The notes beneath the pieces were generated by a model, which searched no databases, was not told the origin of the DNA, and was given only the letters and a program-made list of their open reading frames with translations. DNA of 64,000 bases, taken from positions 124,001-188,000 of the forward strand of contig NW_024881589.1 in the NCBI RefSeq assembly GCF_019059575.1. Direction: 5' to 3'. The position numbers were made by a program, and so were the translations under genes. Numbering within the stretch: position 1 is the stretch's first letter; every line of letters starts with the position of its first letter. Shown here piece after piece: positions 10,591-61,059 of the stretch. The stretch comes from Amphibalanus amphitrite. Taxonomy: Eukaryota > Arthropoda > Thecostraca > Balanomorpha > Balanidae.

Positions 10591-11436
10591 CCTGGTGGTC
10601 AGCGCCTGCGGCATATTACCGATCGCCAGCCGACCGACGCCCATCAACAAGCCATTTCAATTCAGACCTGCGCAGATGAAATGGCTGCCAGCCGCCAATA
10701 TGATGGATATAACGTTATTGGTCGGCGACATCTGCGACCAATGGTCAGCCAAAGAGTTTCGGCCGCCGGACGATGGGTTTCGGAGACGGTAAAAAACAAA
10801 GGGATGCTGCTCTCGGGACGGTGACCGCAGAGAACGGCGAACGCTGTTCATAAGATAGCCGGGCAGCAAGTGTGGGGAATGGGCCGACAGACCGGCAGCC
10901 CCCCCTCTCCGATGGGGAGGGGCGTGCATGCGGTGGGTGGGCGGTATTGTAATATGTCATGATTGGTCGAAATCTGGACTGGGCGGAGCAGTAAAGGGGT
11001 CAAGGATCTGTGAGTGTGTGTGTGTGGGGGGGTGTGGGGGTGTGGGAGTGGGGGGAGGAGGAGGAGGAGGAGGAAGATATTGACTGACGGGATCTGAGAA
11101 TTGCACCATCATTGCCATGAAAGGCACATTGATTGGATTGGATAGCGATGAGATTAATGGAGGAATAGATGTCTCCGAGGGTGATATCATGGACTAATGG
11201 TATATGAAGATTAATATGCTGGTGAAAAGCAATACCAAACATCAATGTGCAGGTAACCTTCCTATCACCCCACTACAGGTTCAATATCGAGTCGGCCGTC
11301 ATAATAACTAATATATCATATTGTGCCAACAGATTCGTCGGGATTTGGGAGCACCATGATGTTACGCAAAGGTAACGTTGTAAGTTGTTATGGTCAAAGT
11401 AGTTGTGATCTAATATTACGAGCATATGCCATTTAA

Positions 11437-12612
11437 CCCGCGCCGTGCTGGTGGCCTGAACTTTCCGCCGAGTGCTGGGGGGGGGGCGTTTTCACGCCCC
11501 CCCGTCTAACTCGGCTCCTGGGCCACGTAGCGACACGCGGTAAGCGGCAATCGAAAGAGCGTCAAAAATAAGGACGAAAACACTTCGGTCATTTTTTGGG
11601 TCAGGTCAAAGGTCAGGTCACCAGAGGTCACCAAAGGTAAAATGTTGACTATTTCAACATTTTGGAAACTGCCAACGGCTATCTCGGGAACCGATAGAGC
11701 TACAGCGCCGCGGAAAAGCGCATTCGATAGCCCTTTTACAGACCTTTCTGAGTAATGTTCTCAGATTTGACCTCAGGTCAACGGTTTAGCCTCCAGAGGG
11801 CAAAAACTCCAAAAATAGCCGTTTTTACGAAAAACGTTTTTTCGTCAATAACTTTTGACTCATAAGCGCCATGACATTACTTTTGCCAGCATCGTGTTCC
11901 TCTCGTCGAGACGCGTCGAATGAACTATTCGTTGACCTTGAAAGGTCATTTTGAAAATTTGACCTCAGGTCAAGGTCATGACCTGACCGAAAAGGGTCAT
12001 GTTGCATATCAGTCGATCCGTATCGTCGAGCTGAACACATCTGACGTGTTTTCACCGCTCTAGCACGTCTCTATCAAAAGTTATAGCCAAAAAACTGCTG
12101 GCGACCATTCATGACCTGAGATGACCTCAGGGGCACACAGAGGGGTCACAGGTGCATTTTTCCTATTCAGTGTGTCATGTTTACCTATGAACCGATGTTT
12201 GAGAGCGTTTTGAACGATATTCGTCCAAAAGAGGCGCATTTCAATTTTCTCCCATTGACTTATAATGGAGAGGTCGCAAAATTGACCTGACCTTAGGTCA
12301 CAGATATCAAAAATCCGAGATATACATTTTATACATACTGTTACTCATATCAATCGCTGAAAGTTTCAAAGTGATCGTTCAGTCGGTGTAGCTATAGCGA
12401 GCCTTTGAACTTTTTCTGAGGTAAGGTCACTTGACGTGACCTGGTGACCTGACCTTGAACGGCCTAGGTCTGAAATTTTCACAACATGTGCGGAAATGAT
12501 GTAGGAACACGTGTACCAAAAACGGCGGCGCTGCGCGCCGCCGTTTTTGAGATATTCGCGAAAAACCTGAGGGGGGGGGGCGTAAAAACGCCCCCCCCCA
12601 GCACGGCGCGGG
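11437..12612 (-). mobile_element. piggyBac-type MITE with subterminal G/C hairpins (copy B1)
   Basis: The element begins CCCGCGCCGTGCTGG and ends with its reverse complement. It is flanked by TTAA at 11433-11436 and 12613-12616, the hallmark target of piggyBac transposons. A G-run/loop/C-run hairpin lies near each tip: 11477-11503, 40 bp from the left tip, and 12571-12599, 13 bp from the right tip. The extra 27 bp at the left end are bounded by a repeat of GTGCTGG. The interior has many GGTCA words and no transposase. It is related to the element at 40995-42187, in opposite orientation. Confidence 0.85.
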
Positions 12613-12769
12613 TTAATACGCACTATTCAGTTCCTACTTATCCAGTATTTACACATTATCGTGGCGAATTACGCCGCTTTCGCAACTTCGCATGCGACTT
12701 CAGGTTCGCGACTTCGAACCTGAATAGCCATGGCGTTTGGCTACTCCAGACCCCTCTACCGTTACATCG

Positions 12770-12838
12770 GTTCGTCCATCATTCGGAATGATGGACGAAC
12801 ACAACAAACTGGTGGAATGATTCATTCCACCAGTTTGT
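12770..12838. repeat. Two adjacent perfect short palindromes
   Basis: The first hairpin, 12770-12800, has 15-bp arms around one base (arm GTTCGTCCATCATTC). The second, 12804-12838, has 17-bp arms around one base (arm ACAAACTGGTGGAATGA). Only three bases separate them. A loose CCACCGGTCTGTCCACCG repeat follows at about 12890-12945. Confidence 0.85.
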
Positions 12839-13000
12839 CTGCACCGTCCCACTGGTCTGCTATCTGCCGGCTCTGCCCTGTCCAGTGTCCACCGCTCCAC
12901 CGGTCTGTCCACCGTTCCACCGGTCTGTCCACCGTCCACCGGCTCTGTTTACCGGCGCCGATCGCTGGTGGCCGCATCGTGATCACTACCGCTGCAATCA

Positions 13001-13121
13001 ATCACGTGACCAGCCGCCTCCCGGCTAATGGCATTACCCGGCGCGGCGCCTTTCACCGGCTGCGCTGTCACGTGACCGGCCGGCCGGCGGCGTTCCGGAA
13101 CACTGGCGCCGGTCACGTGAC
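13001..13121. promoter_or_regulatory. Cluster of three CACGTG palindromes (TCACGTGAC type)
   Basis: ATCACGTGAC at 13001-13010, GTCACGTGAC at 13067-13076 and GTCACGTGAC at 13112-13121 lie within 121 bp of GC-rich DNA. The ten-base form matches the consensus bound by MITF/TFE and USF class bHLH-zip factors in other animals. Binding is inferred. Confidence 0.4.
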
Positions 13122-13490
13122 GGGCGTCGGCGGCGCATCTGGCGCCCGTGCGGCGATGTCGATAGGGGATTTACGCTGAGTCGGGACGCCGGTGCGATCG
13201 GCAGCCCGCTGCACTGATGGCCTGTGTTAGAGGAGTGGACTGGGTGATGGAGGGACGGGTGAACAGCGCTCGGGGAGCGCGGACGTTCTTCCTACACAAA
13301 AATGTAGTTAAAGTACTGTATTGAAAGGTAAAAAAGCGCTTTATTAGTGGATAAATATTTGCCTTAAGTAAAGGTTAGATAGAATTAGATTAAGATAAGG
13401 CTCGAGTTATCAGAAATATCAATATAACACCTGATAGTTTAAGAAATTTGATTGCCACAGTTAACAGAAAACGGTTAGAAGCTCCGATAA

Positions 13491-13830
13491 TACACACAGA
13501 AAAATATTAACACCGTTAGCGGTGTAATTGCACAGTACATATCTGAGCACTTGAGGAAAGTTAATTTAGTCCCTTCCCCGCTTAAATTACTCGCGCTTCC
13601 AAATGAACACCAGGAAGAAGGTAATAGAAAACTGTTAGGAGGGTTGGGTGTTTTGCTACATGTAGTCAAACACCCAACCCTCCTAACAGTGTTCTATTAG
13701 CTTCTTCCTGGTGTTCATTTAGAAGCGCGAGTAATTTAAGCGGGGAAGGGACTAAATTAACTTTCCTCAAGTGCTCAGATATGTACTGTGCAATTACACC
13801 GCTAACGGTGTTAATATTTTTCTGTGTGTA
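13491..13830. mobile_element. 340-bp near-perfect palindrome, possible Tc1/mariner-type MITE
   Basis: The sequence is symmetric about 13660/13661 with no indels and only about five mismatched pairs, the innermost two close to the centre. The tips read TACACACAGAAAAAT and its reverse complement. A TA dinucleotide at each tip would fit a TA target duplication. There is essentially no loop (the centre is CTACATGTAG). No protein is encoded. A transcript would fold into one long hairpin. Confidence 0.75.
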
Positions 13831-16800
13831 TAATCAAGGACACACTTAAAACCAACTTACTTGGCACAATATCGAAGCATTTGCTGTCACAAAAGTAATC
13901 CGAGCTTAGTCACGTAAGAAATAATGCGTCCAAAATGCGTGCATCATGCGAGTGCAGTGAACCTGCGATCTATGCTCACCCGATCTAAGCAATGAGCTCT
14001 GATGGAGGCGATGAATGCACTTGTCTCACGTAAATACGCCACCCGTTATGAATGTGACCAAAGGTGACCCTGGAGTAAGCACCAAGTCACGCCACCCGCT
14101 CCTCCCCCTCAATGAACATTACACACCATTCTTACGAGTCAGAGCCATTCTCATAGTGCCTCCAAGGAAAGCTCCATCTCCTATCACATTTATATCGCAC
14201 CGTTCTACCGTCAAGCGCAGACTCCAGCGGTGGCCGGCGGCCTCTGCCCGGCCTGGCCCGACCTCTCGACCGAGCGTCACTTTATGGATGTCCCGTGTCA
14301 CTGTGTGAAATCCCACCTGCCTAATGCTTCCGATCTCTCTTTCATAGACAGCGGGAGTCATCATTTCTGGGTGCGGCTGTCGCTCGGCCGACGTTTGACA
14401 CCGTTTGTACGGCTATTTAGCGGCGCGCATTGATACCCGTGACGGCTCCATGCCCGGCCAGTGTCTCTGCGCCGCTCTCGATAAGACCACTTCCTGCGCG
14501 CCATTGACTAGGTGCGGCCCGATCGCCGCCGCCGCCGCCGCTGCGTCAAAGACGGCCAGGCGGCATTCAGGTGACGCCGGCGGCGCGCCGGAACTGTCTA
14601 CAAAGGCCCCCCGCGGCCGGCGGTGACAATGGCGGCGCGCAGAGTGCGGAACGCGCCGCGCAGAGAGCAGCACAGGTGGGAGGGGCGTCCGGCCCCCGGC
14701 GCACACTGCCGCCTCTTCACCGGCGCAGCATTAAACGTCCGTTAGGCCTTTTCGCTAATGTGCGAGTCAATTGCTAACACTTTCTAAGGCACGGCCCTTT
14801 TCGACCTTGTCCTAGAGAAACCATAGCAACGTCGCCCCAGTTTTTGGGGGGGGGGAGGGGGGAGCCGCGTTTGGTGACTCCATAGAAACAATAAATTCAT
14901 TAATTTTCTTCGACGGCAGGAATGAGTGCCTTGGGCGTATGGAGTAGGCCAGTACCTGTTCAAGTGAGAAGTCGCTGGCATGCAAGCCACTGTACGCGGT
15001 AGAGCCGTAACACAATATCAGAAATGTCTGGAGTATCACTTACCTTCCAAACAACGGTCAGTTGGCTTGCAACGTCCTATTTCATTTTCAACCAGCGCGT
15101 TTAGGTCTACCGGTCATACATTTTTTGTCATGGAATTGAATAGACCATCATTTCCTTCTCCCCACAATAAGTCTCCACAAGTGAATACTCCTTTCAAACA
15201 AAATAATATTAAGTCATTTGTTTAGCTCTATGTTATACAGGTAGGTACTCGTCTCTCACTGTAGACGATAGAGAACAGCTATTTTCTTCCCTGTTCCAAA
15301 CACTCCCCAGTTCAACTTCTCTCAGCGCGTGGGGTCACTGCGGGGCAATAATCTCTGACACACCCATCGTGACCGTTCCTCATCGGACGCACACCCCAGG
15401 TGCCGTAAATTCACACCAGCACCCCTGCACGGAGGGGCAGCCGCCGCCCGGGGCGAGATCGCCGCCGGAAGATGTCCACTTCCGGCGGAAATGCTCCCTT
15501 TCCGGCCGGTCAGCGCGCCGCTTCTCTTGCCGAATGACCGGTGGTGGGGAGGGCGGCACGACGCCTCCCTCCTGCCGGCCGCCGGTCAGACTTTAATGGC
15601 CAGGGGAGCTGAAAAAGCGCCTTATTGAAGTGACGGTATGAATACGTAAGACACTTTTGAGAGGACCAGAGGCGATTGTAAAGTATAAAAAGCGGCACCC
15701 TGAAGTGACTTAGATCCTGTATTTCATTGTTCAGCTGACGCTATAAAGTGAAACTGAGGACAAACATCCTAGATATTTTAGTGTCAGAGTCGTCAAAAAT
15801 TATGCTCGATATAACCAAGTGGGATATTTCAGGAGCATCCATTTCTTAGAATTTGTGAAGAAAAAATAGGGAGGGGTTGCATCTATCCCGTACCTGGCCG
15901 AATGAGGTAAAACTGAGCATCAGAAATAAAGTCAAATGAGGTAATGAACGAGGTAAAACTGAAGATCATGAATTATAAATCGTGAACGGATCATGCAATT
16001 GCCGGCCCTACGGACTATGACTTATAGACTGAGTGATGAATAGATACAGTAATCAAATAGGTACCACGGCAGTGAAACGTAGATAGGTATTGATTAGAAT
16101 GTGTGCAAATATCCACTGGGATAATAATCCAACAAATTGCACACCCAAGCTCAGCTGCAAAAATGTTGGCCGCTAAAAGTTTGAATTATTAATCACTCGG
16201 CAGTTGAAAGCAATGCACAATAGGTACCTCTTACACAATATCTATCAATGCTGCACATTGCACAACATCCAACCTATTCTGGTCATTAATTTGACGACTT
16301 GCAAAGGACAGCAGATAACTATTTTCTGTTGATAAAGCTACCAATTAAATTACCATGCACAATCCAAACAATGCATGATAACATAAACAGCCTATTAGGG
16401 TGAGCTGTCAGCTGATAGGTTGCTGTTACTCTAGCATAGTAAAAAATGGCGGTGCCCCCTGCACATTGCACACCCAAGGATTCGGCTGATACGCAGACTA
16501 TATTCATTGGAGGCCAGAAAAATGACTTCAAATGTTAGGTGATCACAACGAAAACATTACGAAGGGTGATGAGGTGAGGTGAATGGTGATCGTAACTGGC
16601 AATGCATTGCTCAATTGCTCTCGAATCCATGTGAATTATTGTGTGCATGCCTGGTCCCATTCGTGCAAAAGCATTGTTGTTATTTGAAAAATCCTAGTAC
16701 AAGTATGAGTATTTAAAGCACAAAAATAATTTGTGACTTGTAATGTCATATAATTGCATGCGATGACAAGTAAAGTAAAAGCTCAGGAACTATAGGTCAA

Positions 16801-17319
16801 CATTTTTATTCTACCGGTATCGCTGGTTCTTAGCGCGTAGAACTAGTCATGTAGGTACATACTCTTTTTCTGTAATTGTTGATCAATCACTAGCCGGTTA
16901 CATTATTGTAATGACTTTAACCAGCCAGTGCATAGTGCTATCCATCAATGCTATCTGATAGCACGTGAAAACGCCATTAGCGTCTCGTTAGTCGCTTTTC
17001 ATAACAGTGAATGGCCCGGCGACGGAGGTCGGTTAGCCGGGCACATGTTCGCCGTTCGACACGCTGTCTATAGTTTGTCGTTCACAGGCGGGCCTCATCT
17101 ATCAGTGGGTGTTGGTGCGGTGCGGGCCCCGCCCGGTTCATCCTAAAGCGACCAGCGCTCTGTTGTGTCTCCATTCTCCAAACAATTACCGGGCCGCGAT
17201 GTGCTGCCGAGGCGGTCGACCAGATTCCCGCGCCAAACAACCATGTCATTACTTTCTATTGCAAAACCATCGGGCCGCATTAGCGTTGTCCGCCGGCTAC
17301 TTCTCACGCCGCTGTCCCA

Positions 17320-17375
17320 GCCGACCAATCAGCGCGCTCCAGCCGCCGGCGACCGCCGCCGACGGCCAATCAGCG
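17320..17375 (+). promoter_or_regulatory. Two CCAAT boxes upstream of Nkx6
   Basis: CCAATCAGCG occurs at 17325 and again at 17366 (CCAAT), 41 bp apart, about four helical turns. Both are in the same orientation, in GC-rich DNA 340-390 bp before the chosen start codon. CCAATCA is the NF-Y site core. No convincing TATA box is seen. Promoter placement is inferred from position. Confidence 0.45.
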
Positions 17376-17710
17376 GGCGCGCTCGGCAACAGGTACCGCC
17401 CCATAAACCCATCAAACTCTCCTCTATTCATGTAGGGGGCGGCGCGGCCAGCCGACCGAGAGCCTCCATAATCGGCCGGACTGGAGCGGCGCGAGGCCCG
17501 CATACCTGGTCCAGTGAGGCGCGAGCGCGGCCGTGCCCGGAGAGCGGAGCGGCGCCGACACACGCTCGACCCCAGAGACCGCCCCGCGCCCCGTGCCGTG
17601 CTCGTGCTCGGCGCGCCGTGCCCGTGTCTGACGGCACGCTGTCGTCGGTCGAGGACCAGCCGGCGGCGCCCGAGTGGAGCGCGCCCTCGGAGCGCGGCCC
17701 GCTGCACGCC

Positions 17711-18191
17711 ATGCTCGAGTTCAGCGCGGCGCCGGCCGTCTCCAGTTCCGGCTCAATGCTCTCCTTCTTCAACATGGACCCGACGCAGCAGGGCGCCTTC
17801 ATGCTGGGCAGCCCGCCGCTGGCCGCGCTGCACTCCATGACGGAGATGAAGCAGGCCATGCTGCAATACAGCAAGGCCAGCGGCATCGGCAGTACCAGCA
17901 TCAGCAGCTCGGCGGGCACCCACACGGGCGGCGGCAGCGTGACCCCGACCAGCAGTGGCACCACCTCACCAGTCGCCAGCTCCATCCCACACGGCATCGA
18001 CAGCATCCTGAACCGACCCTCGCCGGGCCAGCTGGCGTTCGGGCCGCGGCTGGCTGCCGGCGGCGTCTACCTCAACAGCTCACCGCTCGGAAAACCACAG
18101 CTGGGAGAGTTCGGCCGGCCGTCGCCGCTGGCCTGGCCCGGCCTGCAGGGCATGATCCAGAACCCGGTCTTCTGGCGGGAGAGGTTCTCAG
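17711..18191 (+). CDS. Nkx6: NK6-class homeobox protein, exon 1
   Basis: Exon 1 encodes the N-terminal part of a nuclear NK6 transcription factor (HGTX/Nkx6). It includes the family signature QGAFMLGSPPLAALHSMTEM at about residues 25-44, a Ser/Thr/Gly-rich linker, and the eh1/TN-like stretch HGIDSILNRP (about 95-104), which in this family recruits Groucho-type corepressors. The exon ends with NPVFWRERFS. I chose the ATG at 17711 because the conserved NK6 sequence begins soon after; ATGs at 17756 and 17774 are alternatives. The frame stays open upstream to 17165, but that part is Arg/Pro-rich without recognisable homology. The donor CAG|GTCAGT follows base 18191 (phase 1). A second in-phase donor at 18204 would add four residues. 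The assembled protein is 275 residues. Confidence 0.9.
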
Positions 18192-18310
18192 GTCAGTCGG
18201 CAGGTGTGTATCACTCCATATAGGCAGACGGGACGGGTGGTACGGTGTTAGAAGGGATGGGGTGGGGTGGAGAGGTTCTCAGGTCAGTCGGCAGGTGTGT
18301 ATCACTCCAT
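18178..18310 (+). repeat. Tandem copy of the exon 1 donor site
   Basis: A 42-bp segment spanning the last codons of exon 1 and its splice donor (18178-18219) is repeated without change at 18269-18310, 91 bp downstream inside intron 1. Use of the second donor would retain an in-frame TAG at 18221 and truncate the protein before the homeodomain. The G-rich DNA between the copies is a likely slippage or repair substrate. Confidence 0.95.
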
Positions 18311-27806
<9,496 letters not shown>

Positions 27807-40994: not shown

Positions 40995-42187
40995 CCGCGC
41001 CCTGCTGGGGGGGGGGGGGTGTTTGAACACCCCCCCTTGTGGTTTTTCGCGAATATCTCAAAAACGGCGGCGCGGAGCGCCGCCGTTTTTGGTACACCTT
41101 ATCATGCATCAATTCTACACATGTTGTGAAAATTTCAGACCAAGGTCATTCAAGGTCAGGTCACCAGGTCACTTGAAGTGACCTCACCTCATAAAAACTT
41201 TCAATGTCTGTCATAGCTACACCGAGTGACCGATCGCTTTGAAACTTTCAGCGATTGCTAAGAGCAATAGCATGTACAAAATGTATATCTCAGAATTTTG
41301 ATATCGATGACCTAAGGTCAGGTCAATTTTGCGACCTCCCCATTATAAGTCAATGGGAGAAAATTGAAATGCGCCTCTTTTGGATGAAAGACATTATAAA
41401 CACTCCCAAACACCGAATTACAAGTGGTTTAGACACACTGAACTTAAAAATGGTGTCCTTGACCCTTGTTTATGCCCTGAGGTCATCTTAGGTCACGAAT
41501 GGTATCTAACAGTTTTTCGCAAATAACTTTTGATAGAGGCATGCTAGAGCGATGAAAACGCCTTAGATGTGTTCAGCTCGACGATACGGATCGACTGATA
41601 TGCAACATGACCCTTTCCGGTCAGGTCATGACCTTGACCTGAGGTCAAATTTTCAGGTTGACCTTTCAAGGTCAAGTTATAGTTCATTCGATGCGTCTTG
41701 ACGAGAGGAACACGATGCCGGTAAAAGTAAGCTCGTACAAGGCTTGGGTCAAAAGTTATTGCAGAAAAACTGTTTCCGAAAAAATCGGCTATTTTTGCAG
41801 TTTTTGCCCCCTGCAGGCAAAACCGTTGACGTTAGGTCAAATCTGAGAGAATTACTCAGAAAGGGCGTTAATAGGGCTATCGAATGCGCTTTTCCGCGGC
41901 GCTGTAGCTCTATTGGTTCCCGAGTTATGCGTTGGCTTCTTGGAAATTTTCGACATTCGACCTGGAAATCGGCGAAATTTTGCCTTCAATGACCTCTGGT
42001 GACCTGACCTTTGACCTGACCAAAAAATTGACCGAAGTGAATTCGTCATTATTTTTTACGCTCTTTCGAACGCCGCCTTCCGCGTATCGCTACGTGGCCC
42101 AGGAGCCGAGTTACAAGGGGGGGTGTTCAAACACCCCCCCCCCCCCCAGCAGGGCGTGGAAATCCAGGACCCCCAGCAGGGCGCGGG
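40995..42187 (+). mobile_element. piggyBac-type MITE with subterminal G/C hairpins (copy B2)
   Basis: The right tip is CCAGCAGGGCGCGGG followed by TTAA at 42188-42191. The left tip reads CCGCGCCCTGCTGG after TGAA, a decayed TTAA with one C lost. Hairpins lie at 41007-41036 (12 bp from the left tip) and 42117-42147 (40 bp from the right tip). The 27-bp spacer at the right end is bounded by a repeat of CCAGCAGGGCG. The inner sequence matches copy B1 read in the opposite direction, for example the palindrome AACGGCGGCGC...GCGCCGCCGTT next to the short end. No transposase is present. Confidence 0.85.
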
Positions 42188-45980: not shown

Positions 45981-46042
45981 ACCAGTAAAACGCCTTTTGG
46001 GCGAAGAACGAGCGAGCGAGATAGTGAGCCCTGCACAGTGCA
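45981..46042 (+). mobile_element. End fragment of the G-family element
   Basis: Sixty-two bases match the left tip of copy G1 up to GAGCCCTGCAC, then the sequence diverges at CAGTGCACA. It directly abuts the left arm of the large inverted duplication. Confidence 0.75.
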
Positions 46043-46044
46043 CA

Positions 46045-47470
46045 GATCTCACAATCTATCCATGCATAATGCATATCTTATGTAATGATAGGCAATGATT
46101 AATTCCTACAAATTTGAATTTATAAAACTCGATGCTAACTTATTCATTATTGATTAACTACCAGTAAAACGCCTTTTGGGCGAAGAACGAGCGAGCGAGA
46201 TAGTGAGCCCTGCACGTGCGGAAGGGCGAGAGGGTGCTGCCAACGGGCTTGCGCAAAGCACCCTTCTAACCGGTCGCTAGCGGTGTGCCAAATTTGAACG
46301 CAATCGGCCCAGCCGTTCCTGAGATCTGGAAGCGGCATTCTGCTCGTGCGCACGTGCAAACGGGGTCCAAAATGACTTTTGCACGGCACCCTACTAACTG
46401 GTCCCCAACCGTGTACCAAATCTGAGCGCAATCGGCCCAGCCGTTCTCGAGATCTGGAAACGCCCCCTGCACGTGCGCACGTGCAGTAGCACCCTAACCG
46501 CAACACATGGGAATGCATTGCCTGGTGGGTGCCTACCTGTATGCCAAGTTTCAGCGAAATCGCCCCAGTAATTACCGAGTTACTGAAATGGGAACAAATT
46601 TGGCACCTCTTATTGTTGTATTTTGCACGTGCACTGGAGGTGACCCACATGCATCGAGAGTATCCTATTTTGGGTAGAAGGGATGCTGCTACCCTACAAA
46701 AATTACCGCAAGTCAATCGCCCACGCGGCTGCTGAGATATGAGCCTCTCAAAATCACTACTTTTGCAAAACAGCTTGAACACCATTGACTTTTCACGTGG
46801 CAACTGGCACGTGCCACGACGGTCACTGAGATGTGTCAAAAGTAGTCAATTACGGGGTAGAAGGAATGGGGCTACCCGCAGTGCACGTGCAAAATAGAAC
46901 AATAAGAGGTATCAAATTTGTTCCCATTTTCATAACTCGGTAATTACTGGGGCGATTTCGCTGAAACTTGGCATACAGGTAGGCACCCACCAGGCAATGC
47001 ATTCCCATGTGTTGCGGTTAAGGTGCTACTGCACGTGCGCACGTGCAGGGGGCGCTTCCAGATCTCGAGAACGGCTGGGCCGATTGCGCTCAAATTTGGT
47101 ACACGGTTGGGGACCAGTTAGTAGGGTGCCGTGCAAAAGTCAGTTTGGAGCCCGTTTGCACGTGCGCACGTGCAGAGTGCCGCTTCCAGATCTCAGGAAC
47201 GGCTGGGCCGATTGCGTTCAAATTTGGGACACCGCTAGCGACCGGTTAGAGGGGTGCTTTGCGCAAGCCCGTTGGAAGTACCCTCTCGCCCTTCCGCACG
47301 TGCAGGGCTCACTATCTCGCTCGCTCGTTCTTCGCCCAAAAGGCGTTTTACTGGTAGTTAATCAATAATGAATAAGTTAGCATCGAGTTTTATAAATTCA
47401 AATTTGTAGGAATTAATCATTGCCTATCATTACATAAGATATGCATTATGCATGGATAGATTGTGAGATC
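46045..47470. repeat. 1.43-kb inverted duplication built around the G-family element
   Basis: Arms 46045-46635 and 46879-47470 are reverse complements across a 243-bp loop. Symmetry extends about 115 bp beyond each ACCAGTAAAACG tip into flanking DNA (GATCTCACAATCTATCCATG on the left, its complement on the right). The host flank was therefore duplicated with the element. This points to a fold-back duplication of an element plus its flank, rather than two insertions. Confidence 0.88.
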
Positions 47471-50400: not shown

Positions 50401-50602
50401 TGCATCACAGTCACACGATCCTAGTATAGTTGCGGTGGATATTGTGGGTGGATATTTATAGTCACCGTGATTGTGACCTTTGGTGACCTGACCTCTGTGA
50501 CATGAACTGGTAGGTATCAGTGACCTCAGTCAGTAAGCAAAATATGTTTTAGATAAACAGTGCTGCCTCTATCGATGAATTTGGATAATATGCTTTTTAC
50601 TC
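47471..50602. other. Intergenic, no gene recognised
   Basis: It includes a G16 run at 48205-48220, AT/GC-mixed islands at about 47800-48030 and 49180-49330 that look regulatory, and from 49750 AT-rich DNA with GGTCA-type words that may be an old element. Two 60-70-bp passages around 48390-48470 and 48680-48760 share ACGCCATCATATGC and CATACAAATGC, so they are a diverged duplication. No coding region is supported. Confidence 0.5.
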
Positions 50603-50755
50603 AGTAGCGGCGGAACACCTTCAATTAAGGGAGGGGGCACTGCCGACTTTTGGTCCCATTCTTTCCATGCAACGCCCATAGGGCTAATGTTAAAATGCCA
50701 AAATCGAAGGGGGGCGCGGTGCTCCGGTGCCCTCCCCGTTCCGCCGCCTATGGTT
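50603..50755. mobile_element. Short MITE with GGCGGAAC ends
   Basis: The left end TCAGTAGCGGCGGAACACC and the right end GGTGCCCTCCCCGTTCCGCC (then GCCTATGG) are imperfect inverted repeats about 150 bp apart. No clear target duplication is seen. Confidence 0.5.
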
Positions 50756-51906
50756 TGAACTTTGAACGCTTAAAACCATGAAAAGACTGCAAATGCGCGG
50801 CTAATGTGAGCCGACATACGCCGAATGGCGATTCCGGCCAAACATGGTCTCAAAAAGTAGATCACAGGTCAAAGGTTATTTGGGTCAGGGTCATTATCAG
50901 GGATGCGGAGCCGGAGCCGGAGTCGGAGCCGGAGCCGCCGGAGCCGGCATATTTTGCCCGGAGCCGGAGCCGGAGCCGGAGCCGTGAAACAATATAGCCC
51001 GGAGCCGGAGCCGGAGCCGGAGCCGCCAAAAAAGGGGCGACTCCGGCTCCTTTTTTATTTTTTGAAGAGGAAAAAAATAATTGACCTAGTACGGTTTGAC
51101 AGTACAAGGCAGTAAAGCATATGATAAGTACGTCATGAGCCATCAAGTGAATGAAAAAAAGCCGAATATCCCCAGTATCCCACAGTACGCAATCAACTTT
51201 CTGTCTGCTCCTCCTCGCCCCCCCCCCCCCCCCCACGTCTACTGCATCCCCAGAACATGAGGACCGGTCATCAGGTGACGGCCATTGTTTTGAAGCCAGT
51301 GCAGTGGACTGCGACTCCCAGCACCGTCTCTTCCCCACCCCCCACCCCCCACCCTCCCCCCATGCAGCCGAGAGGAATGTCAGCTTCAGTGAACTCCGAT
51401 TCGCGGCGACTGCGTTTCCAATGCCATCGCTTCCTAGTCCTTTGTTCTGCCAGTTCTCTCCGAGGTGCGTTTGCGCGGGGACGCGGTGAGCCGGTCATGG
51501 CAAAGAGTAACGCGTATAACCAATCCAATTTTTCTTCCACCCGTATTTAATTGATTGCATAGGGGATGTACTGAGTCGGAGCCGGAGCCGCCGGAGCCGG
51601 AGCCGCCGGAGCCGGACCATTTTACTCGGAGCCGGAGCCGGAGCCGGAGCCGCCATGACATTTCACCCGGAGCCGGAGTCGGAGCCGGAGCCGATTTTTT
51701 TCTCCGGAGCCGGAGCCGGAGCCGGAGCCGTCTGAAATTTCCACGGCTCCGCATCCCTGGTCATTATATTTTCAGGGTACGTTTAAAATTGATAAACGCG
51801 AGGGTAGGTACTGGAAGTTTCGTCGCGACCGGCCGCTTTTTACGCGAGTTATCTGCGAAAAACCGAGGGGTGGGGGTCTGTTCGACCCTCCCCATACGGG
51901 CGAGGG
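50756..51906 (+). mobile_element. Degenerate piggyBac-type MITE (copy E), split by a hAT MITE
   Basis: Both sides of the hAT insertion match element D at 60390-60660: GAGCCGACATACG, GATTCCGGCCAAACATGGTC and GGTCATTTGGG-like sequence on the left, TTTCAGGGTA and CGGCCGCTTTTTACGCGAGT on the right. The right tip CGAGGG ends at 51906 with TTTC in place of TTAA. A G/C hairpin (51867-51893) ends 13 bp from that tip, as at the short end of intact copies. The left end is not recognised. Confidence 0.65.
50898..51759 (+). mobile_element. hAT-type MITE with GGAGCC arrays, copy 1
   Basis: The tips CAGGGATGCGGAGCC and GGCTCCGCATCCCTG are inverted repeats flanked by an exact 8-bp duplication, GTCATTAT (50890-50897 and 51760-51767). 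An 8-bp duplication with CAGGG-type tips is the hAT signature. Inside, directly repeated GGAGCC hexamers form several short arrays near both ends, separated by AT-rich spacers, with a C17 run at about 51218-51234. It is 862 bp, nearly identical to copy 2, and inserted into element E. No transposase. Confidence 0.93.
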
Positions 51907-51935
51907 TTTCCTCGCCCGCCAGTGTCCTGACTTAA

Positions 51936-52010
51936 CCCGCATCCCGCCGGGCTATTCAGCCATACGCACCCTGCTAAGGGGGATACATACCTATTCTCTC
52001 TCCCCTCCCA
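51936..52010 (+). mobile_element. Possible long end of a further piggyBac-type element (F)
   Basis: TTAA at 51932-51935 is followed by CCCGCATCCCGCCGGGC. A G5 run begins at 51978, 42 bp from the tip, with a C-rich run about 20 bp later. This matches the long-end spacing of intact copies, but the hairpin is decayed and no matching right end is seen. Confidence 0.3.
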
Positions 52011-52682
52011 GTTCCGAACCGATGGTCGTAAAAAGACAGGGAGAGCGGCAATAGAAAGCTCTCAACAAGACAGACCTTTAAAACAATTTATTTCTTCGCT
52101 TGAGCAGGTCAGAGGTCATGTCAAGGACAGGTCAAGGTCAACTTTCTACATTACCGGTTTTGGAGCGCAGTTGGCGAAGAATGGACGAGATCGAGTATCC
52201 AAAACGTGTTCTTAGGCTACCAAGACCGGATTCGTTCATGCAATGCCATGCAAAGGTCAAGGTCAAGGTCAATGTCAGGTCAGGTCACCAAAAGTGAAAT
52301 ATAGAATAGGACATATTCGACACATGTTTTATGGGTGACAGTCACAGAAGAATCACGCACACGCTTTTCGTTACGTCCTAATTTCATTAAAAAATGAGAA
52401 TGTTAGAGGCGTTTGAAATTTTGCGGTTTTTGAAGCGAAAATGGCGTGAGACGACTGTCTCCGACGTCACTAAATGCAATTTCGGAAACATTTCCCCACG
52501 GATTTCGCTTAAATTTTCAGGCAACATCTCAAATTCATCAATTGATGTATAAGGTACCTATTGAAAGTTTGACATCGCTGGCTTACCACGTTTAAAAGTT
52601 ACTGGCGAAAAACGGGAGAGGCAGTCTTTATCATCTCAGAGGGACCAGGGTGCTTTTCTGAATTTGGGGTTCCAAATCAGTT

Positions 52683-52838
52683 CCAAATAATGTTGAACTC
52701 AATGGGCAGTTCCAATTGCAGTTCCAAATCAGCCCCTTATGGTTCCAAATGCATTGCCGCCCACGTTAACATTTGGAACAATTTGGGACGCATTTGGAAC
52801 TGCAATTGGAACTGCCCATTGAGTTCAGCATTATTTGG
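52683..52838. repeat. Fold-back with 47-bp arms
   Basis: Arms 52683-52729 and 52792-52838 pair with one mismatch across a 62-bp loop. The word TTCCAAAT and its complement ATTTGGAA recur about seven times in and around it. Sequence from 52080 to 52300 before it is rich in GGTCA words and may be an old element. Confidence 0.85.
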
Positions 52839-53440
52839 TTTCCCAGTGTCGCCGGCCGGCCGCCAGGTGCGTTAGCGCCGACTGCGGGCGACGACTCCGG
52901 GCGGACGGGGCGCTGATAACGTAGCTACGTAGTTATTATAATGACGGAACATAAAATATTTATCCTATATCTCCACACACAGTTATCGTATAGATCTGTT
53001 CATGGGTTCAATCGATGACGCTTTCCACACGCTACGTTGCTATGCAACGTTTATGCTGGGATATAATCGTAAAATGAAGTTTATACTGGTGTTCGAAGCC
53101 GTTTGTTTATCATATTATTTCGTAGTTTACTACGTTAACTGTTGTTTTTTCTTAATCAGCCCTATCTATCGGTTTCCTACGGCTTGTATCATCGTGACCC
53201 TCGCACCTGGTTCCCGGTATGATGTCGACCTCATGACGGCGAGGTCACGGGTCCGATATGACCTCACGTTACCCTTAGGAGAAATCCGACAATCATAAAA
53301 CAAGCCTGTGTGTTGCTAAGCTACTAACCTCAAACGACACATACCACGCCAGGGCGCGCTTCAGTCGGGTGAAAGGCAATCTACCGAAGCATTATAGAAG
53401 CACTCGTTCTTGATTAAAAACACAGCCGCGTAACATTCTT

Positions 53441-53572
53441 CCCTGATCAAAATACAGTCACCATGGGACGCCCATTGGTCCAGCGAAACAGTTGCACTAA
53501 AAAAAAAAAAAAAAACTCCCTGATTAACATACTGCCACGGTGGGCGCTGGTTGATCCAGCGAAACAGTTCAG
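53441..53572 (+). repeat. Diverged 77-bp tandem duplication separated by a poly-A run
   Basis: CCCTGATCAAAATAC at 53441 and CCCTGATTAACATAC at 53518 begin two copies. Both end in GATCCAGCGAAACAGTT or GGTCCAGCGAAACAGTT, separated by an A-run at 53499-53515. Confidence 0.75.
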
Positions 53573-54257
53573 GCTTCAGCTACAGCCGAATGGAACCATT
53601 TTTATTCATTAAAACATGATCAAGACAAAAACAGGTTTGATAAAAATTGATAAAAACAGGCAGCGATAACTGTCCAACCGACCGAACAACAAACGACCGC
53701 TCATTCGCGCTTTGCGAATCCCGCTCTCTTCGCCTCCACGAAGTTCGTCCATTGCCCAATCACTGTTGGCGCTGTTGCCGTTACTGCCTTAACAGTTTGT
53801 TGCAGCGCTGCTCAACTGGGGCAGAACACGCGCCCCCCGTACCGCGCGTGGGCGCCATCAGAAGGTTCGCCGCACTGGCGGCACTTGTACGAGCATGCCG
53901 GGCACGCCGTCGCCGCCGGGCACGGACCGAGCGCGTCGTCGCCGCGGCAATGGATTGTTTGAGCACAGTAGCTGCTTGCGGCGGCGTCAGGCCCTGGGCC
54001 TCCGCCTCCGCCCGGGCCTCCTTCAGGCGCCGGAAGTAGGTGGTGCGCGACACTCGACAGGCGCTTGCCACCCTCCCCCTGCGTCTGTAAGGTCGCAGAC
54101 GATCCCTACTACTGCGGAGGCGGGAGGCGGCGGGGACTGCAGCAGTGGCCACCACACCGGCTGCTGGTAGGGCTGCGGCGGCCGCCAGCCCGGCTGCTGC
54201 TGCTCCTACGGCGGGGCCCCGGATGCAACCATCTCGGGTGCTGAGGTGGCGGCGGCT

Positions 54258-54366
54258 TTTCGTGTCAGAAGCCATGACAGGGACTGTCCTTGTTGGGCTT
54301 GAGAGCCCTCGATTATTATATACTTGTGTCATATTTGTATTATTTGTCAATAAATGTTGAGAAAAG
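54258..54366. mobile_element. 109-bp insertion flanked by 14-bp direct repeats in the last exon
   Basis: AGGTGGCGGCGGCT occurs at 54244-54257 and 54367-54380, bracketing AT-rich DNA unlike its GC-rich host. The insert ends TGTCAATAAATGTTGAGAAAA on the plus strand, with AATAAA near the end, and its tips are CTTTTC/GAAAAG complements. Insert plus one repeat is 123 bp, so the host frame is kept. A retroposed fragment with a target duplication is the simplest reading; an indel next to a simple repeat is the alternative. Confidence 0.5.
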
Positions 54367-55116
54367 AGGTGGCGGCGGCTGCTGAGGCGGCCAGCCTCGC
54401 AGCTGCGGAGGAGACCAGGCAGCAATGGCCGGCGGCTGCTACGGGACTGCGACTGTCGGCGGGACCGGCGGCGGGTTCGCCGCGGCAGGCCTTCGAACTT
54501 TAGCGGTTTGCGATCCGCCGGCTCCAGCCACCCCCACCGCTCCCGGATCCGGTCTGCCTGCGTGTTGGCCAACGCTAGGCGGCTCGAAGCCAGAACTTAA
54601 CAAACGAAACTAAACAAACTTAACTAGTCAGTAAGCGCGACGCCTCTCACCCGTGTGCGCCGCCGGAGGCCGGTAGGCGGGGAAGAGCGGCTGCAAGCCG
54701 ACCAGGCCGGCCAGCTCGGTAAGCCGGCGCTGCAGTCCGGTGCCGTGCAGGCGAAGACCGGGCAACTGCTGCTGGGGCTGAAGAGCCGCCACTGCCCTGT
54801 CCGCATGCCACCTCGGACGGCCCTCGACCAGGTAGGCCTGGAAGTGGACGGCGCTAGCCGAGGAGCCTACAACGAGCAGAAAAGAACCACACCGTCAATT
54901 CATAATCCGCGCGCCTCTACCTGCCAGTCATACCATACCAACGCTGATAAGTTCGCACTCAGCTTACACGATTATAACTATCATCTATTTATATTTTTTA
55001 TAACTAGCATCAGTTATTTCTAGCAAAGTAAACCGCAAGTTAGCGATTAATAAGATGTCAACCGACATAGGGGCCAGTCGCTGCAAAATAAACATTAGAA
55101 ATCATATAGGTACGAC

Positions 55117-55975
55117 CAGGGATGCGGAGCCGGAGCCGGAGTCGGAGCCGGAGCCGCCGGAGCCGGCATATTTTGCCCGGAGCCGGAGCCGGAGCCGGAG
55201 CCGTGAAACAATATAGCCCGGAGCCGGAGCCGGAGCCGGAGCCGCCAAAAAAGGGGCGACTCCGGCTCCTTTTTTATTTTTTGAAGAGGAAAAAAATAAT
55301 TGACCTAGTACGGTTTGACAGTACAAGGCAGTAAAGCATATGATAAGTACGTCATGAGCCATCAAGTGAATGAAAAAAAGCCGAATATCCCCAGTATCCC
55401 ACAGTACGCAATCAACTTTCTGTCTGCTCCTCCTCGCCCCCCCCCCCCCCACGTCTACTGCATCCCCAGAACATGAGGACCGGTCATCAGGTGACGGCCA
55501 TTGTTTTGAAGCCAGTGCAGTGGACTGCGACTCCCAGCACCGTCTCTTCCCCACCCCCCACCCCCCACCCTCCCCCCATGCAGCCGAGAGGAATGTCAGC
55601 TTCAGTGAACTCCGATTCGCGGCGACTGCGTTTCCAATGCCATCGCTTCCTAGTCCTTTGTTCTGCCAGTTCTCTCCGAGGTGCGTTTGCGCGGGGACGC
55701 GGTGAGCCGGTCATGGCAAAGAGTAACGCGTATAACCAATCCAATTTTTCTTCCACCCGTATTTAATTGATTGCATAGGGGATGTACTGAGTCGGAGCCG
55801 GAGCCGCCGGAGCCGGAGCCGCCGGAGCCGGACCATTTTACTCGGAGCCGGAGCCGGAGCCGGAGCCGCCATGACATTTCACCCGGAGCCGGAGTCGGAG
55901 CCGGAGCCGATTTTTTTCTCCGGAGCCGGAGCCGGAGCCGGAGCCGTCTGAAATTTCCACGGCTCCGCATCCCTG
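55117..55975 (+). mobile_element. hAT-type MITE with GGAGCC arrays, copy 2
   Basis: Same tips and interior as copy 1, flanked by the exact 8-bp duplication GGTACGAC (55109-55116 and 55976-55983). It is 859 bp; the 3-bp difference from copy 1 is the shorter C-run (14 instead of 17). It sits in an intron of the minus-strand DUF6729-like pseudogene, just after the exon ending at 56020. The near identity of the two copies implies recent movement. Confidence 0.95.
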
Positions 55976-58639
55976 GGTACGACCATTGCGGTTTCGAGCT
56001 AACTATTTCTATGTCTGACCTGGGATGAAGCGGCAGAGATGGAGATGAAAACTCTCCAGCGACGTGGTGCCGCGAGCGCAGCGGTAGATGTTCTACGCCG
56101 CCCAACTGGGAGCTGCCGATGCGACGGTACAGTGTGACGCCCTCGGGGTCCTGCAGACAAGGGAGGCGGCGCCGCTGCTCATCCCAGATGTCTCGCATCT
56201 CCTCCCACATTAGAGGTGCCCCCAGACTATCCGTCGCATCAGCGAGCTCCAGTAGGAGCGTTTCCAGTAGGTCGGCTGTGCACAGGACGCCGGCGGTGCG
56301 CCGGCGCGGTAGTGGCGGGCCAGCTCCTTGGTTCCGATGGCCAGGCGGACGGCCTTGGCCGTCGGCTCCGTCACTCAGTCGGCCTGGATCTGTGCCCGCT
56401 TGGCCTGCTCTAGCAGCGCCAAGTCAGCAGTGTCTCACTAGAGGAGGCACGCTGAGAGGCGGCTCAGCAACGTGCCGTATGTACAGAGGGTGAGAGCCGC
56501 TCGTTACGCCAAAGGCGAAGCGCCGCATGTAATGCTAGGCGTCCAGGCGCACGACGAGCTGCGGCCAGGCTCAAACAGCTCCCATAGCCGCGAAGTGCCG
56601 CCCCCGCCGCAGCAGCAATTGATGTCGGTGTAGAGAGCTGCCGGGGGCGGCTGGCCGGCCGAGCGGAAATGCTCACCAGGTCGGTGGCCAGCGGCTCCAG
56701 GTCAACAAGTCCTTCGGAGATGGTGAGGACGGTGCCTTCAGCATCCCACCGCGTTCGCTGCCGACCGAGGTGGCCCATGTGGCGGAGCTAGCCGCCAATC
56801 CCGCCAGCTTCTTGGTGATCTACGGGAACAAACATACCATTTAGTAAATGGTACTCATATTACATAGTAAATGGTAGGTGCATACCACATTCATTGTGGT
56901 GATGCGGTCACTGTTATACCGGGCCGATATCTGACCTCACTTAGCTACACGCTCAGAGTATGACTAACAACGTAACATGAACGGGAATCTTTACATCACA
57001 ACTAACAACATTATCAGCAATTTAATCATGAAGACAAGAATAAGAAGCTAGAGGTGCAGGTGCTCACCTTCTTGGTAGAGTCAATCTTTACGGCCAGACA
57101 GTCCACTGTCTGGCCGTAAGTGCTCGTGCAGGCCGCCTTCATCAGGGGCAGCCGCTGCCAGTTGTCCCGCAGGTGCATTGCCAAGTATCACGCGGGTCCG
57201 GGCGGGGCGGCAAAGTCTGGCGGCGGCTGGTACTGCACCGCCAGCTGCAGAAGACCTACAGAGCCGAGTCCAGAGTGAAAAAGAGCACCTGCTGTTAGAC
57301 TACCACTGCCTGAGGCCTGTGGCCACCTCCGATGATTCGTACAGCGGATGAACTTTTGATTTATGAACACCGTAACTGTCCATGGGCAGCCGAAATCCAT
57401 AAATCAACGCTCTTATAGGCGTATAGATCCCAAAAAAATAGCGAGACGAAATATGTTCTTAGTGTACTGGAGGTGCAACTTACTACTATACTTACTACTA
57501 TGGTACTATAGTGTCGCCGGCAGTCGGCCAGGTACGCCTGCACCCGAAGGCAGTACTCAGAGTGCAGCCCGGCGATCGTTCGGCGGGGCGCGGTGCGGCT
57601 GTTGCCCAGGGTCCAGCCGAGCAGGAGCCCCGGCAGGACGGCTCGGTCGCAGGCGGACCGCTGGCTCGACACCACCGGATACCGGAGCCCCAGGACGGCT
57701 CGGTCGCAGGCAGACAGCTAGCTCGACACCACCGGGTACCGGCCGCGCCAGCTGCTCGACCAGCTGAGGGTCCGTACTGATGTAGGTCCCGCTGAACGCC
57801 GGGCAGTAGTGGTACTCTGCTGCTAGGAAGTAGAGGTCTCGGACGTTCGGGCACAGTCCGCAGAACGCTAGTGCACCACGGTCTTCAAGGCATTACCGCA
57901 CCATAGGTGGCCGTCCACTGGTAAGGCGCGCATTTTGAGCGTAATCGTCCAGTGCCTAGTGCGCGCTGAAAAGAAAGAAGTATTTCAAGTCGTCAGGAGT
58001 GATGCAGCTCGTGACGAGACTCGCTCCGGATCACCCAAAATCAGCGTTAACTTTAAATGGACTTTAAAGTGGACAAAAAATGATCCAAAACAAAATACGG
58101 CCTAAAACAGTATGCTCACATTGTTCAAAATTAAATTTGGCTCACAAATAGGGCACATAAAAACAGGCGGAGAGCTCGGACCCTGCCGAGGCCAGTGTGC
58201 TACAGGTCAGCTGATACGCTGGCCCTACTGGCCGAGAAAGTCTTTTTACAAAAGGCGGCTGTGTGAGCCGACCTTTCCCCAAAAGGCCAGAGTGCAGAAA
58301 GGCAGCCGTGTACGCCGACCCTTCCCGGCCCAGACGACTCCCTTTTGCAGCTCTCCGTGTTACGGCCCTACACTCTATACAACACTCAAAAATCGAGCCA
58401 CCCGGCCGGCTCCACTGCACCGAGACGACTGACTCTCTCCCGCCGTGACCCCGACACAGGTCAATTCGCCGGCGGGGAGATAATTCGCCGGCGAGTATCA
58501 CGTGATACTCGCGCGACCACATCACCCCCCCCCCCCCCGGCCCGCACCGCGCGCGGCTCGGCCTGCCGGTACAAGTGTATCCCGCCCACACAGTGGGCTC
58601 GGAGAGGACACGCCGAACACAACAGTGCTTCATTGCTGT

Positions 58640-58812
58640 TGTGAATTCACTTCTCCCAACAAGGAGAAGTGAAGTAATGTTGAGCTGTCATCGCGAGATT
58701 CGGCGCCCAACAGCCGCCGAATATTCAGCTGATTGCCCTTCATCGCACATTCGGCGCTGAACCGCAATCGGCGCGCAGCCCATATACTCCACAGCATATA
58801 TGGGCTGCGCGT
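58640..58812. repeat. Short hairpins beside element C
   Basis: TTCACTTCTCC/GGAGAAGTGAA at about 58646-58673 and GCGCAGCCCATATA/TATATGGGCTGCGC at 58773-58810 (10-nt loop) are perfect inverted repeats. No transcription unit is evident here, so I do not call them terminators. Confidence 0.7.
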
Positions 58813-58835
58813 ATTTACATACAGCGCATATTTAA

Positions 58836-59770
58836 CCCTAGAACGCCTAGGGGGGGGTTGTATCAACCCCCCCTGAGGTTTTTTTCGAAGTGCACGCTAA
58901 ACGGCTTGTCGTAGCGGGCTGAAATTTTCAATACCCTCTGGGGCAACCTTTGCGCATCTTTTGCCGAAAACAATTGATCGGGTCATGTCAGGTCACGGAG
59001 TTATGACGTCATAAGAGGTACAGCCTCCGGCCGGATTTTCACAAACTGAGTGCCAACGCCCGAGGTTTCCTGCCGGTGGTACGGACATCGGTTGATGGAT
59101 CGTGTTGAAACTTCCCATGCATGTTGGGGCAAGTATTGGCTATCATATGGTATAAGAAATTTGACCGGGTCAGGTCAGGTCACGGAGCTATGACGTCACA
59201 AGAGGAACAGCGTCCGGTACTATTTTTGAAAAGCGCCCGAACCACTATTTTGCTAATTCTTGTCACCTCAATGGGAATATGCAGCAATATTAGCTTCTAT
59301 AGGGAGCAAATGGACCTCCCAAATCCAAAAATACAATCAGATTTCAAAAATTTAAATTTCGATTTTTCGAATTCCTGCCGCCGACTGTGACCTTGCCGAC
59401 TTCCGGCGCTCCCAACGCGCCATTTTTAGAGCTAGGGAAACGAAATACATACCAAACGATAGAGAATTGATCAAGGAATACGATAGTGAAGGTTTCAAGT
59501 CGATATCTCCCACCGTTTTGCCGCAATCGCCGCCGAAAGTTGAAAAAAGTATATTTTTCCGAAAATTTTACCTTTGACCGGTCAAAAGTAGGTCAAATGT
59601 TGACCTAGGACCAAAAAATATACCACCAATCGCGAGATCTCGTTGAGAGCAATCCGTTGGTTTTTTCCGCTAAGCTCTACGACCTTCCGTTTCGAAACGC
59701 CAGGGGGGGGTCGTAACAACCCCCCCCCCTGGTCGTTCGTGTTATGAGAAATGGCCTGGTCGTGCGAGGG
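58836..59770 (+). mobile_element. piggyBac-type MITE with subterminal G/C hairpins (element C)
   Basis: The left tip CCCTAGAACG follows TTAA at 58832-58835 and resembles the CCCTAGAAAG tip of piggyBac itself. The right tip CGTGCGAGGG precedes TTAA at 59771-59774. Hairpins lie at 58850-58873 (14 bp from the left tip) and 59703-59729 (41 bp from the right tip). The long-end spacer is bounded by a repeat of CCTGGTCG. The 935-bp interior is AT-rich with GGTCA words and encodes no transposase. It lies in the first intron of the DUF6729-like pseudogene. Confidence 0.85.
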
Positions 59771-59774
59771 TTAA

Positions 59775-60660
59775 CCCTCGCATGTGTGCGGCGTTTGCCA
59801 GCTTCTAATGTGTAGGGGGGGGGGGTCGGTTGGACCCCCCCTTGCCGTTTGGCCCCTGATCGAGCTAGAGCTTCGCGGAAAAAACGAGCGTGTTGCCCGT
59901 GACGAGAGGAAGCCGATGATACCCAATTTTAAGGTCCTAGGTCATTGGTTGACCTTCCAGGTCAGGTCAATGACCCAAAGTCGGGAAAATCGGGACCTGT
60001 TAGAAAGTCGTAAAGTGTGGCTGCTAAGGGTTTTTTTGGGGTGCTGATCACGAATATCGTGTTAGTTTTGATCACAGATGATGTCTTGAAGCATTTAGAC
60101 CAGGTCGGGTCAGGTCAGGTCAGGTCAACCAGTAGGCGTCGTGACGGGTATTCGTAGTACGTGTCAACCGCCTCTGACAGCTTCGTAACATGTTACGAAG
60201 TCACCAAAACTACTTCGTAAATGTTCAAATGGTTGCTAAATTCGAATTCAGCTCCAAAAACTAGCCTAGAAACATGTAAAACTCGAAAAAGTGACCCGAG
60301 GTCACCCGAGGTCACCAAAGGTCAATGACCTGACCTCAGACCTGACCTTCAGGTGACCTTGACACACACGATAGTAACATCAAATCACATGTTTGAACGT
60401 TTGAAACCACGAAAAGCTTGCAAACACGCGGCTAGTGCGAGCCGACATACGCGAAATCGCGATTCCGGCCAAACATGGTCTCGGAAAAGAGGTCGCAGGT
60501 CAAAGGTCATTTGGGTCAGGGTCATGAAATTTTCAGGGTAGGTGTAAAATTGATCAATGCGAGGGTACTGAAAGTTTCGTCGCGATCGGCCGCTTTTTAC
60601 GCGAGTTATTCGCGAAAAACCATGGGGGGTCCATCCGACCCCCCCCTACACATGCGAGGG
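59775..60660 (-). mobile_element. piggyBac-type MITE with subterminal G/C hairpins (element D)
   Basis: The tips CCCTCGCATGTG and CACATGCGAGGG are exact inverted repeats, flanked by TTAA at 59771-59774 (shared with element C) and 60661-60664. Hairpins lie at 59815-59841 (40 bp from the left tip) and 60624-60646 (14 bp from the right tip). ATGTG is repeated on both sides of the long-end spacer. The right 270 bp match copy E near 50756-51906. No transposase. Confidence 0.87.
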
Positions 60661-61059
60661 TTAACCAGTGAACGGTAGCCTTTAGTGCTTTCCATGGGCT
60701 AGTCGGTTCCGGTCCAGCATTGTAATTAAAACACAGCAAAGCCGTAGTTACTCAAGGAACGTACCTGGCAGGAGTGCAGCGGAGACACTTCAGGTCGACC
60801 CTCCATATTCTGCCGGGCATCCAGAGTAGGGGGCGCCGGCAGAACTGAGCGCCAGGCATGGAGTAGGAGCCGGGCGGCGGCACGCCGGCAGTCGGCGGGT
60901 ACTGCCACAGGTCCAGGCCGTCTCTCAGCCGCCCGTGGTCGTCGAACAGCCGGTGTGTCACCCACTGCTGATCAGCCGGCTCCAGCGTCTCCAGCCAGCC
61001 GTCAGGCAGGACACTGGCCGGTCCGGTGGGCCGGGAGTACGGCCCGACCCACAACCGAC

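Follow-up and report, generated by a model that had tools for sequence, protein, structure and literature searches.

Constant spacing within the unequal, palindrome-bearing ends of piggyBac-like elements in a barnacle genome

How can the ends of related transposons be recognized when their sequences differ and the distances within them stay the same? This question is raised by four elements, E1 to E4, in a 64-kb window of the barnacle Amphibalanus amphitrite (C92:124001-188000; assembly of 807.5 Mb in 2644 contigs). The window is the whole stretch that was analyzed, and positions given without a locus name are numbered within it. Each element carries a palindrome made of a G run and a C run beside each end, close to the tip at one end (short end) and farther from it at the other (long end), where a short box is also duplicated. 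This anatomy is constant across the families that we sampled, and boxes and palindromes agree between the two ends of an element. We consider it probable, at about 0.82, that the barnacle elements are non-autonomous piggyBac-type transposons, namely large miniature inverted-repeat transposable elements (MITEs), whose palindrome is bound as a duplex by a dimer of transposase C-terminal domains and whose second box docks a second dimer.

Four elements with unequal ends

The elements and their end features are as follows; palindromes were detected by palindrome scan and are given without strand.

E1 with TTAA flanks, 11433..12616, plus strand: long end on the left, TTAA on both sides, CCC...GGG; member of a very young family
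E1 long end, 11445..11478, plus strand: box GTGCTGG (11445-11451), spacer, and the same box (11472-11478), offset 27
E1 long-end palindrome, 11477..11503: G10-CGTTTTCACG-C7
E1 short-end palindrome, 12571..12599
E2, 40995..42187, minus strand: E1 family (83%), reversed; left TTAA and tip decayed
E2 short-end palindrome, 41007..41036
E2 long-end palindrome, 42117..42147
E2 long end, 42146..42183, minus strand: 11-nt box CGCCCTGCTGG present twice, offset 27
E3 with TTAA flanks, 58832..59774, minus strand: long end on the right; 98% copy at sampled locus L138:6100-7040
E3 short-end palindrome, 58850..58873
E3 long-end palindrome, 59703..59729
E3 long end, 59728..59763, minus strand: 9-nt box ACGACCAGG present twice, offset 27
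E4 with TTAA flanks, 59771..60664, plus strand: long end on the left; 97% copy at sampled locus L142:8876-9760
E4 long end, 59782..59813, plus strand: 6-nt box ATGTGT present twice, offset 26
E4 long-end palindrome, 59815..59841
E4 short-end palindrome, 60624..60646

The original prediction, made from the sequence of the window, described four elements with TTAA targets (one decayed), CCC...GGG tips, and a G/C palindrome beside each end, and all of these were seen on reading and scanning the sequence. The tips were CCC/GGG in E1, E3, and E4 and at the right end of E2. When the 64 kb were scanned for G5+, 3-20 nt, and C5+, eight palindromes were found, one at each end of E1-E4. A G6+/C6+ scan likewise revealed eight, whereas 60 first-order Markov shuffles contained 0.03 on average and never more than 1. 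The lengths of the G and C runs ranged from 6 to 14 across the four elements.

The distances from tip to run (long end/short end) were 40/13 in E1, 40/12 in E2, 41/14 in E3, and 40/14 in E4, in agreement with the prediction of 12-14 bp at one end and 40-41 bp at the opposite end. The E2 distances were counted by eye from 40995, and 12 is the value as it stands, with the short tip lacking one base and the TTAA. A spacer bounded by a repeat of the edge of the terminal inverted repeat had also been predicted for the long end. Exact box repeats of 7, 11, 9, and 6 nt were present in E1 to E4 at offsets 27, 27, 27, and 26, respectively, and a repeat of at least 6 nt at offset 25-29 arose by chance in 1.0-2.5% of composition shuffles of each end.

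Judged by sequence comparison, the four elements cannot be counted as independent cases: E1 and E2 belong to a single family (83%), E3 and E4 are similar at their long ends, and the families are kin. E3 and E4 lie head to tail on a single common TTAA (59771-59774), and a second such join, again with an E4 copy, was observed at L142:8872-8875. A TTAA adjoining an insertion seems to have been re-used.

Spacing, pairing, and box agreement in the wider genome

We further searched for TTAA-CCC elements with palindromes at about +13 and -40, as the original prediction had proposed, in twenty 10-kb stretches (200 kb) taken at the same coordinate of twenty contigs. These contigs were the ones met through E1 matches, and the sample therefore favors long and E1-bearing contigs. 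A broad rule (G5+, 6-13 nt, C5+) gave 51 palindromes. Tip-anchored ends, with a perfect TTAACCC or with CCC and one TTAA mismatch 6-69 bp from a G5+ run, numbered 35, of which 32 had the perfect motif; the CCC tip was built into this rule, and worn-tip or tipless palindromes among the 51 were excluded. The tip-to-run distances were bimodal, with 16 ends at 13-17 bp, 19 ends at 39-49 bp, and none between, so that 35 of 35 ends fell in the two classes. The distances 15, 17, 45, 47, and 49 were each represented by a single end, and the end at 47 bp was by eye E1-like with an interrupted G run. Copies without the fixed spacing would have contradicted the prediction, and none turned up in the sampled 200 kb or among the 40 E1 copies described below.

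All 14 paired elements (11 sampled, 3 in the window) had one short and one long end, and 13 had TTAA on both sides. E2 was missed by the automatic pairing because its tip is worn. The element at L142:7903-8871, which is included in the 14, has long and short ends of different families (cores CAATTTG and CCGAAACGG) and is perhaps a recombinant joining the ends of two families.

The E1 family was examined in the best 40 of 5530 first-look candidates, window copy included, a choice that favors young copies. Among these 40, 39 full-length copies besides that of the window showed 99-100% identity. Twenty copies had a mean difference of 0.28%, and all 26 gap columns were at the G/C runs. The distances from tip to run start were 40 and 13 in 40 of 40 copies, and CCC...GGG tips were present in all 40 by the pattern used. 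Of 39 flanks fetched, 31 were TTAA/TTAA, 4 were TTAT/TTAT, 3 were ATAA/ATAA, and 1 was mismatched; two of the TTAT copies were flanked by the same sequence and probably represent a single locus. In total, 7 of the 39 copies (L109, L113, L116, L120, L121, L130, and L131; at least 6 loci) lay in exact duplications of TTAT or ATAA. TTAT is a secondary target site for this piggyBac-type element, and the near-identical copies and TTAT flanks indicate that the E1 family moved recently, sometimes into TTAT.

On comparing families, we located the best match to the nine bases before the run at offset 26-28 in 19 of the 23 long ends; among these 19, offset 17 tied in two and one matched at only 5/9. Across the long ends with 19 distinct cores, exceptions included, the end's own box at offset 26-28 scored 6.7/9, versus 4.3 for the boxes of other families. 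The spacers of the 19 long ends with distinct cores showed a mean ungapped identity of 34%, and 16 of the 19 measured 39-42 bp. Across 29 distinct cores, paired changes preserved core symmetry in 61 of 87 pair cells; shuffling gave 32 on average and at most 51 in 20,000 shuffles. This symmetry was counted by position in scripts because a MAFFT alignment of the palindromes, which was set aside, misaligned the cores of 9 and 10 nt.

Ten families were then compared, in the same orientation only and with the first match per pair; L142:7903-8871 stood in for L144:5172-6342, which was dropped as having the same short tip. Palindrome cores were 77% alike between the two ends of one element versus 43% between families, and boxes matched at 8.0/9 versus 4.3/9. 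The inner box of the long end tracked the short-end box of the same element. The paired core changes, the agreement of box and core within an element, and the divergent spacers of even length favor a trans-acting, two-fold reader that meets both ends. Because the spacing stayed the same while the sequences changed, these findings suggest that spacing matters more than the letters.

A piggyBac-type reading of the ends and its rivals

The RE63 sequence of the Trichoplusia ni (T. ni) piggyBac right end contains a 12-nt repeat at offset 27, and the palindromes of the left end (LE) and right end (RE) are centered at bp 25 and 53. The corresponding centers are at about bp 27 and 56 in E1, E3, and E4. 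As in LE35 and RE63 of T. ni piggyBac (IFP2), the barnacle ends have TTAA, a CCC tip, and a box followed by a palindrome, and the long end has an insertion and a duplicated box at offset 27-28. The likeness to piggyBac geometry that had been predicted was borne out by the T. ni ends, in which the second copy of the box likewise lies about 27 bp from the first. According to PMC7351741, the T. ni right end has a 17-bp insertion and a duplication, RE bp 34-63 being a near-repeat of LE bp 7-35. In the solved T. ni complexes, the transposase core lies on the box, a dimer of the C-terminal cysteine-rich domain (CRD) bends one palindrome as a duplex, and a second dimer was modeled on the inner site of the long end. 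With 5 extra bp or a scrambled second box in the right end, transposition in cells was down by about half, and the native transposase carried both excision and integration to completion only when the two ends were of different kinds (PMC7351741). Five piggyBac types, three of them intact, have been reported in Amphibalanus amphitrite (PMC10813416), and we count this in favor of the piggyBac reading.

By analogy with T. ni, we infer that a piggyBac transposase acting in trans reads the barnacle ends. Each end comprises a CCC tip next to TTAA, followed by a short box and the G-run/C-run palindrome; the short end is arranged as tip-box-palindrome and the long end as tip-box-spacer-box-palindrome, with the second box 26-28 bp further in. 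The box would be contacted by the transposase core, and the palindrome would be held as a duplex by a CRD dimer, both as in T. ni. A second, non-catalytic dimer, set inward by about 2.6 helical turns, may sit on the second box and palindrome of the long end. We propose that this inward phasing of the second dimer makes a long end pair with a short end.

Several results weigh against this reading, as does the kinship of the families considered below. No DDE_Tnp_1_7 (PF13843) match with E up to 0.01 was found in 106 open reading frames (ORFs) scanned out of the 206 stop-to-stop frames of at least 85 aa in the window, and tblastn of 120 piggyBac proteins (of 1186 found) against 348 kb of the genome gave no match. 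Because no transposase was found in the ORFs and the 348 kb searched, piggyBac membership rests on target, tips, and end architecture. By the rule used, four of the 23 long ends were without a box at offset 26-28; two of these are one family (L142:235 and L143:2421), in which the box CGCCGG recurs at offset 28 by eye, and the other two look worn. The E1 long-end G run varied from 7 to 16 nt across the 40 copies, and such slippage, or assembly error, shifts the palindrome center by several bp among young copies; the center is therefore not strictly fixed, whereas the distance from tip to run start is. The T. ni half-sites TGCGT/ACGCA (19-bp internal repeat) were not seen in the runs and cores inspected by eye, and E1 has only GCGT...ACGC in common with them, at another spacing. 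The hyperactive T. ni transposase accepts like ends (PMC7351741), so that the asymmetry is not absolute even there. Finally, piggyBat of Myotis lucifugus, a true piggyBac relative, is described without the barnacle layout, in which a palindrome is present at both ends (PMC11707139).

The even spacing could also be inherited from one ancestor that had such ends, with no selection on the distances. For eight of the ten families, an alignment of >600 bp to one or more of the others was obtained, in most cases at 55-76% identity and with matching placement of the long end (E3 and E4 aligned with other families over only about 130-380 bp). On this evidence the families are one clan, kin by descent, and constancy could therefore partly be inheritance. 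However, the long ends kept their length even with spacer identity down to 34%, and the inner box follows the short-end box of its own element. Whole elements range from 885 to 1213 bp in the ten families, which indicates that insertions and deletions occur elsewhere in them and counts against inheritance alone; we regard inheritance without selection as unlikely. Less likely still is recognition by shape, in which the transposase would read a hairpin or cruciform extruded from the palindrome. All eight ends in the window have good folds as single-stranded DNA (z -2.9 to -6.1; equaled by 0-3 of 200 dinucleotide shuffles), and the paired changes would preserve a stem, but a two-fold protein site demands the same symmetry, and the T. 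ni palindrome is bound as a bent duplex by the CRD dimer (PMC7351741). The would-be stem is also ragged because the two arms are often unequal: in E1, the long-end G run is mostly 10-13 versus a C run that measures 7 in 34 of 40 copies, and the short-end arms are mostly 9 (G) versus 10 (C). Of the suggestion that transposase reads the hairpin or the spacing, the spacing part was supported; "hairpin" is probably the wrong word for a palindrome with unequal arms whose T. ni counterpart is bound as a duplex. Membership in another TTAA-targeting superfamily such as Kolobok shares the TTAA duplications, but Kolobok termini are 5'-RR...YY-3' (PMC9587614) versus CCC...GGG here, and the duplicated-box layout is that of T. 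ni piggyBac. Kolobok membership was rejected on these termini, and we consider such an assignment highly improbable.

The piggyBac-type reading also leaves differences from described elements. Compared with T. ni piggyBac, the barnacle elements have no coding region that we saw and form many families with differing boxes and cores, and their palindromes, instead of TGCGT...ACGCA, consist of a G run and a C run enclosing a variable core, which spans 6-13 nt under the search rule. The CMITEs of Acropora corals are likewise piggyBac-type MITEs with TTAA, CCC tips that diverge between families, and a conserved inner region; however, they are about 100 bp long, their conserved part is the inner sequence and not only spacing, and the available text describes no pair of long and short ends (PMC2872659). 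The mPok MITEs and Pokey of Daphnia are similarly large (about 750 bp) crustacean piggyBac MITEs with TTAA, but their ends are 12 or 16 bp and imperfect, and the main text mentions no palindrome or hairpin (PMC3849761). piggyBat resembles the barnacle elements in its box and palindrome modules, unequal ends, and tetramer with an inner non-catalytic dimer, but its modules are repeated 44 bp apart on the left end, with no such palindrome described on the right (PMC11707139, PMC13405395). Nothing in the literature searched, supplements being outside the search, describes these elements or a 27-bp rule that extends over several families. A profile of 15 piggyBac transposases run against viral contigs confirmed none of 66 pattern matches. 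Viral and prokaryote stretches with TTAACCC, 8-14 nt, G6, 7-14 nt, and C6 (22 and 62, many of them short) had a partner end within 5 kb, under the pairing rule applied, in 0 of 84 cases and were judged to be chance, terminators, or runs.

Neighboring repeats and the meaning of the clan

AGGTCA/TGACCT, the nuclear-receptor half-site, occurred 21 times in E1, 21 in E2, 6 in E3, 16 in E4, and 30 in a fold-back element, against shuffle means of 0.3-1.1; the ten families compared held 4-21 sites each. The sites were arranged, for example, as direct repeats with spacings of 0, 1, and 4, as everted repeats with a spacing of 1, and, at 60319, as a single perfect inverted repeat, also with a spacing of 1. 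Such elements could spread receptor sites, or AGGTCA could be a site of the transposase. The fold-back element (5159-7775) has 873-nt arms that are 100% complementary, ends GGGGCATTCCACGATAGATCGACC, and, by eye, a 4-bp GACT duplication. Its arm and the E1 interior align over about 515 colinear bp at 61%, with different ends and targets, and by this alignment an interior is common to two transposon types.

A fifth, decayed element and other features were also present in the window:

E5 short end, 51829..51906, minus strand: decayed, E4-like; TTAA lost and palindrome worn; profile match E 6.9e-9 plus alignment
E5 internal piece, 50761..50894, plus strand: 86% to E4; severed from its short end by an inserted element at 50898-51759

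The long end of E5 was not found in the window. The inserted element at 50898-51759, which splits E5, and another at about 55117-55975 are near-identical CAGGGATGCGG...CCGCATCCCTG elements rich in CGGAGC repeats, with 8-bp duplications GTCATTAT and GGTACGAC by eye; they are hAT-like. An AGGTCA-rich stretch at 51932-52650 begins TTAACCCGC and is weakly like E4 (66% over 108 bp, E 0.002), and it is perhaps another worn element. DUF6729 was matched by 2 of the 106 ORFs scanned (best E 1.6e-14). A U6 small nuclear RNA match at 63916-64000 is cut by the window end, and a homologue of Nkx-6 in the window is 89% identical to that of the acorn barnacle Amphibalanus amphitrite, its closest match among named species; a metagenome protein matched at 93%.

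The unequal ends of piggyBac have been termed "a puzzling arrangement" and "an enigmatic feature" (PMC7351741). In the barnacle clan, the end phasing of piggyBac has persisted although the letters that are recognized were replaced wholesale. As a tentative extension, which we hold with well under even confidence, the clan may be a natural series of at least 10 box and palindrome specificities on a fixed scaffold, each common to both ends of an element and each probably with its own transposase variant, in which the 27-bp phasing of the second dimer cannot be changed. If true, a rule of the 12/23 type would exist for piggyBac too, in many versions that are blind to one another within one genome. 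That the clan has retained the 27-bp phasing while its letters were replaced is evidence from nature for a functional role of this phasing, as opposed to a peculiarity of a single moth element. With the matched sets of boxes and palindromes, it would be possible to test which transposase residues read which site, and these sets could supply mutually independent piggyBac systems for genome work.

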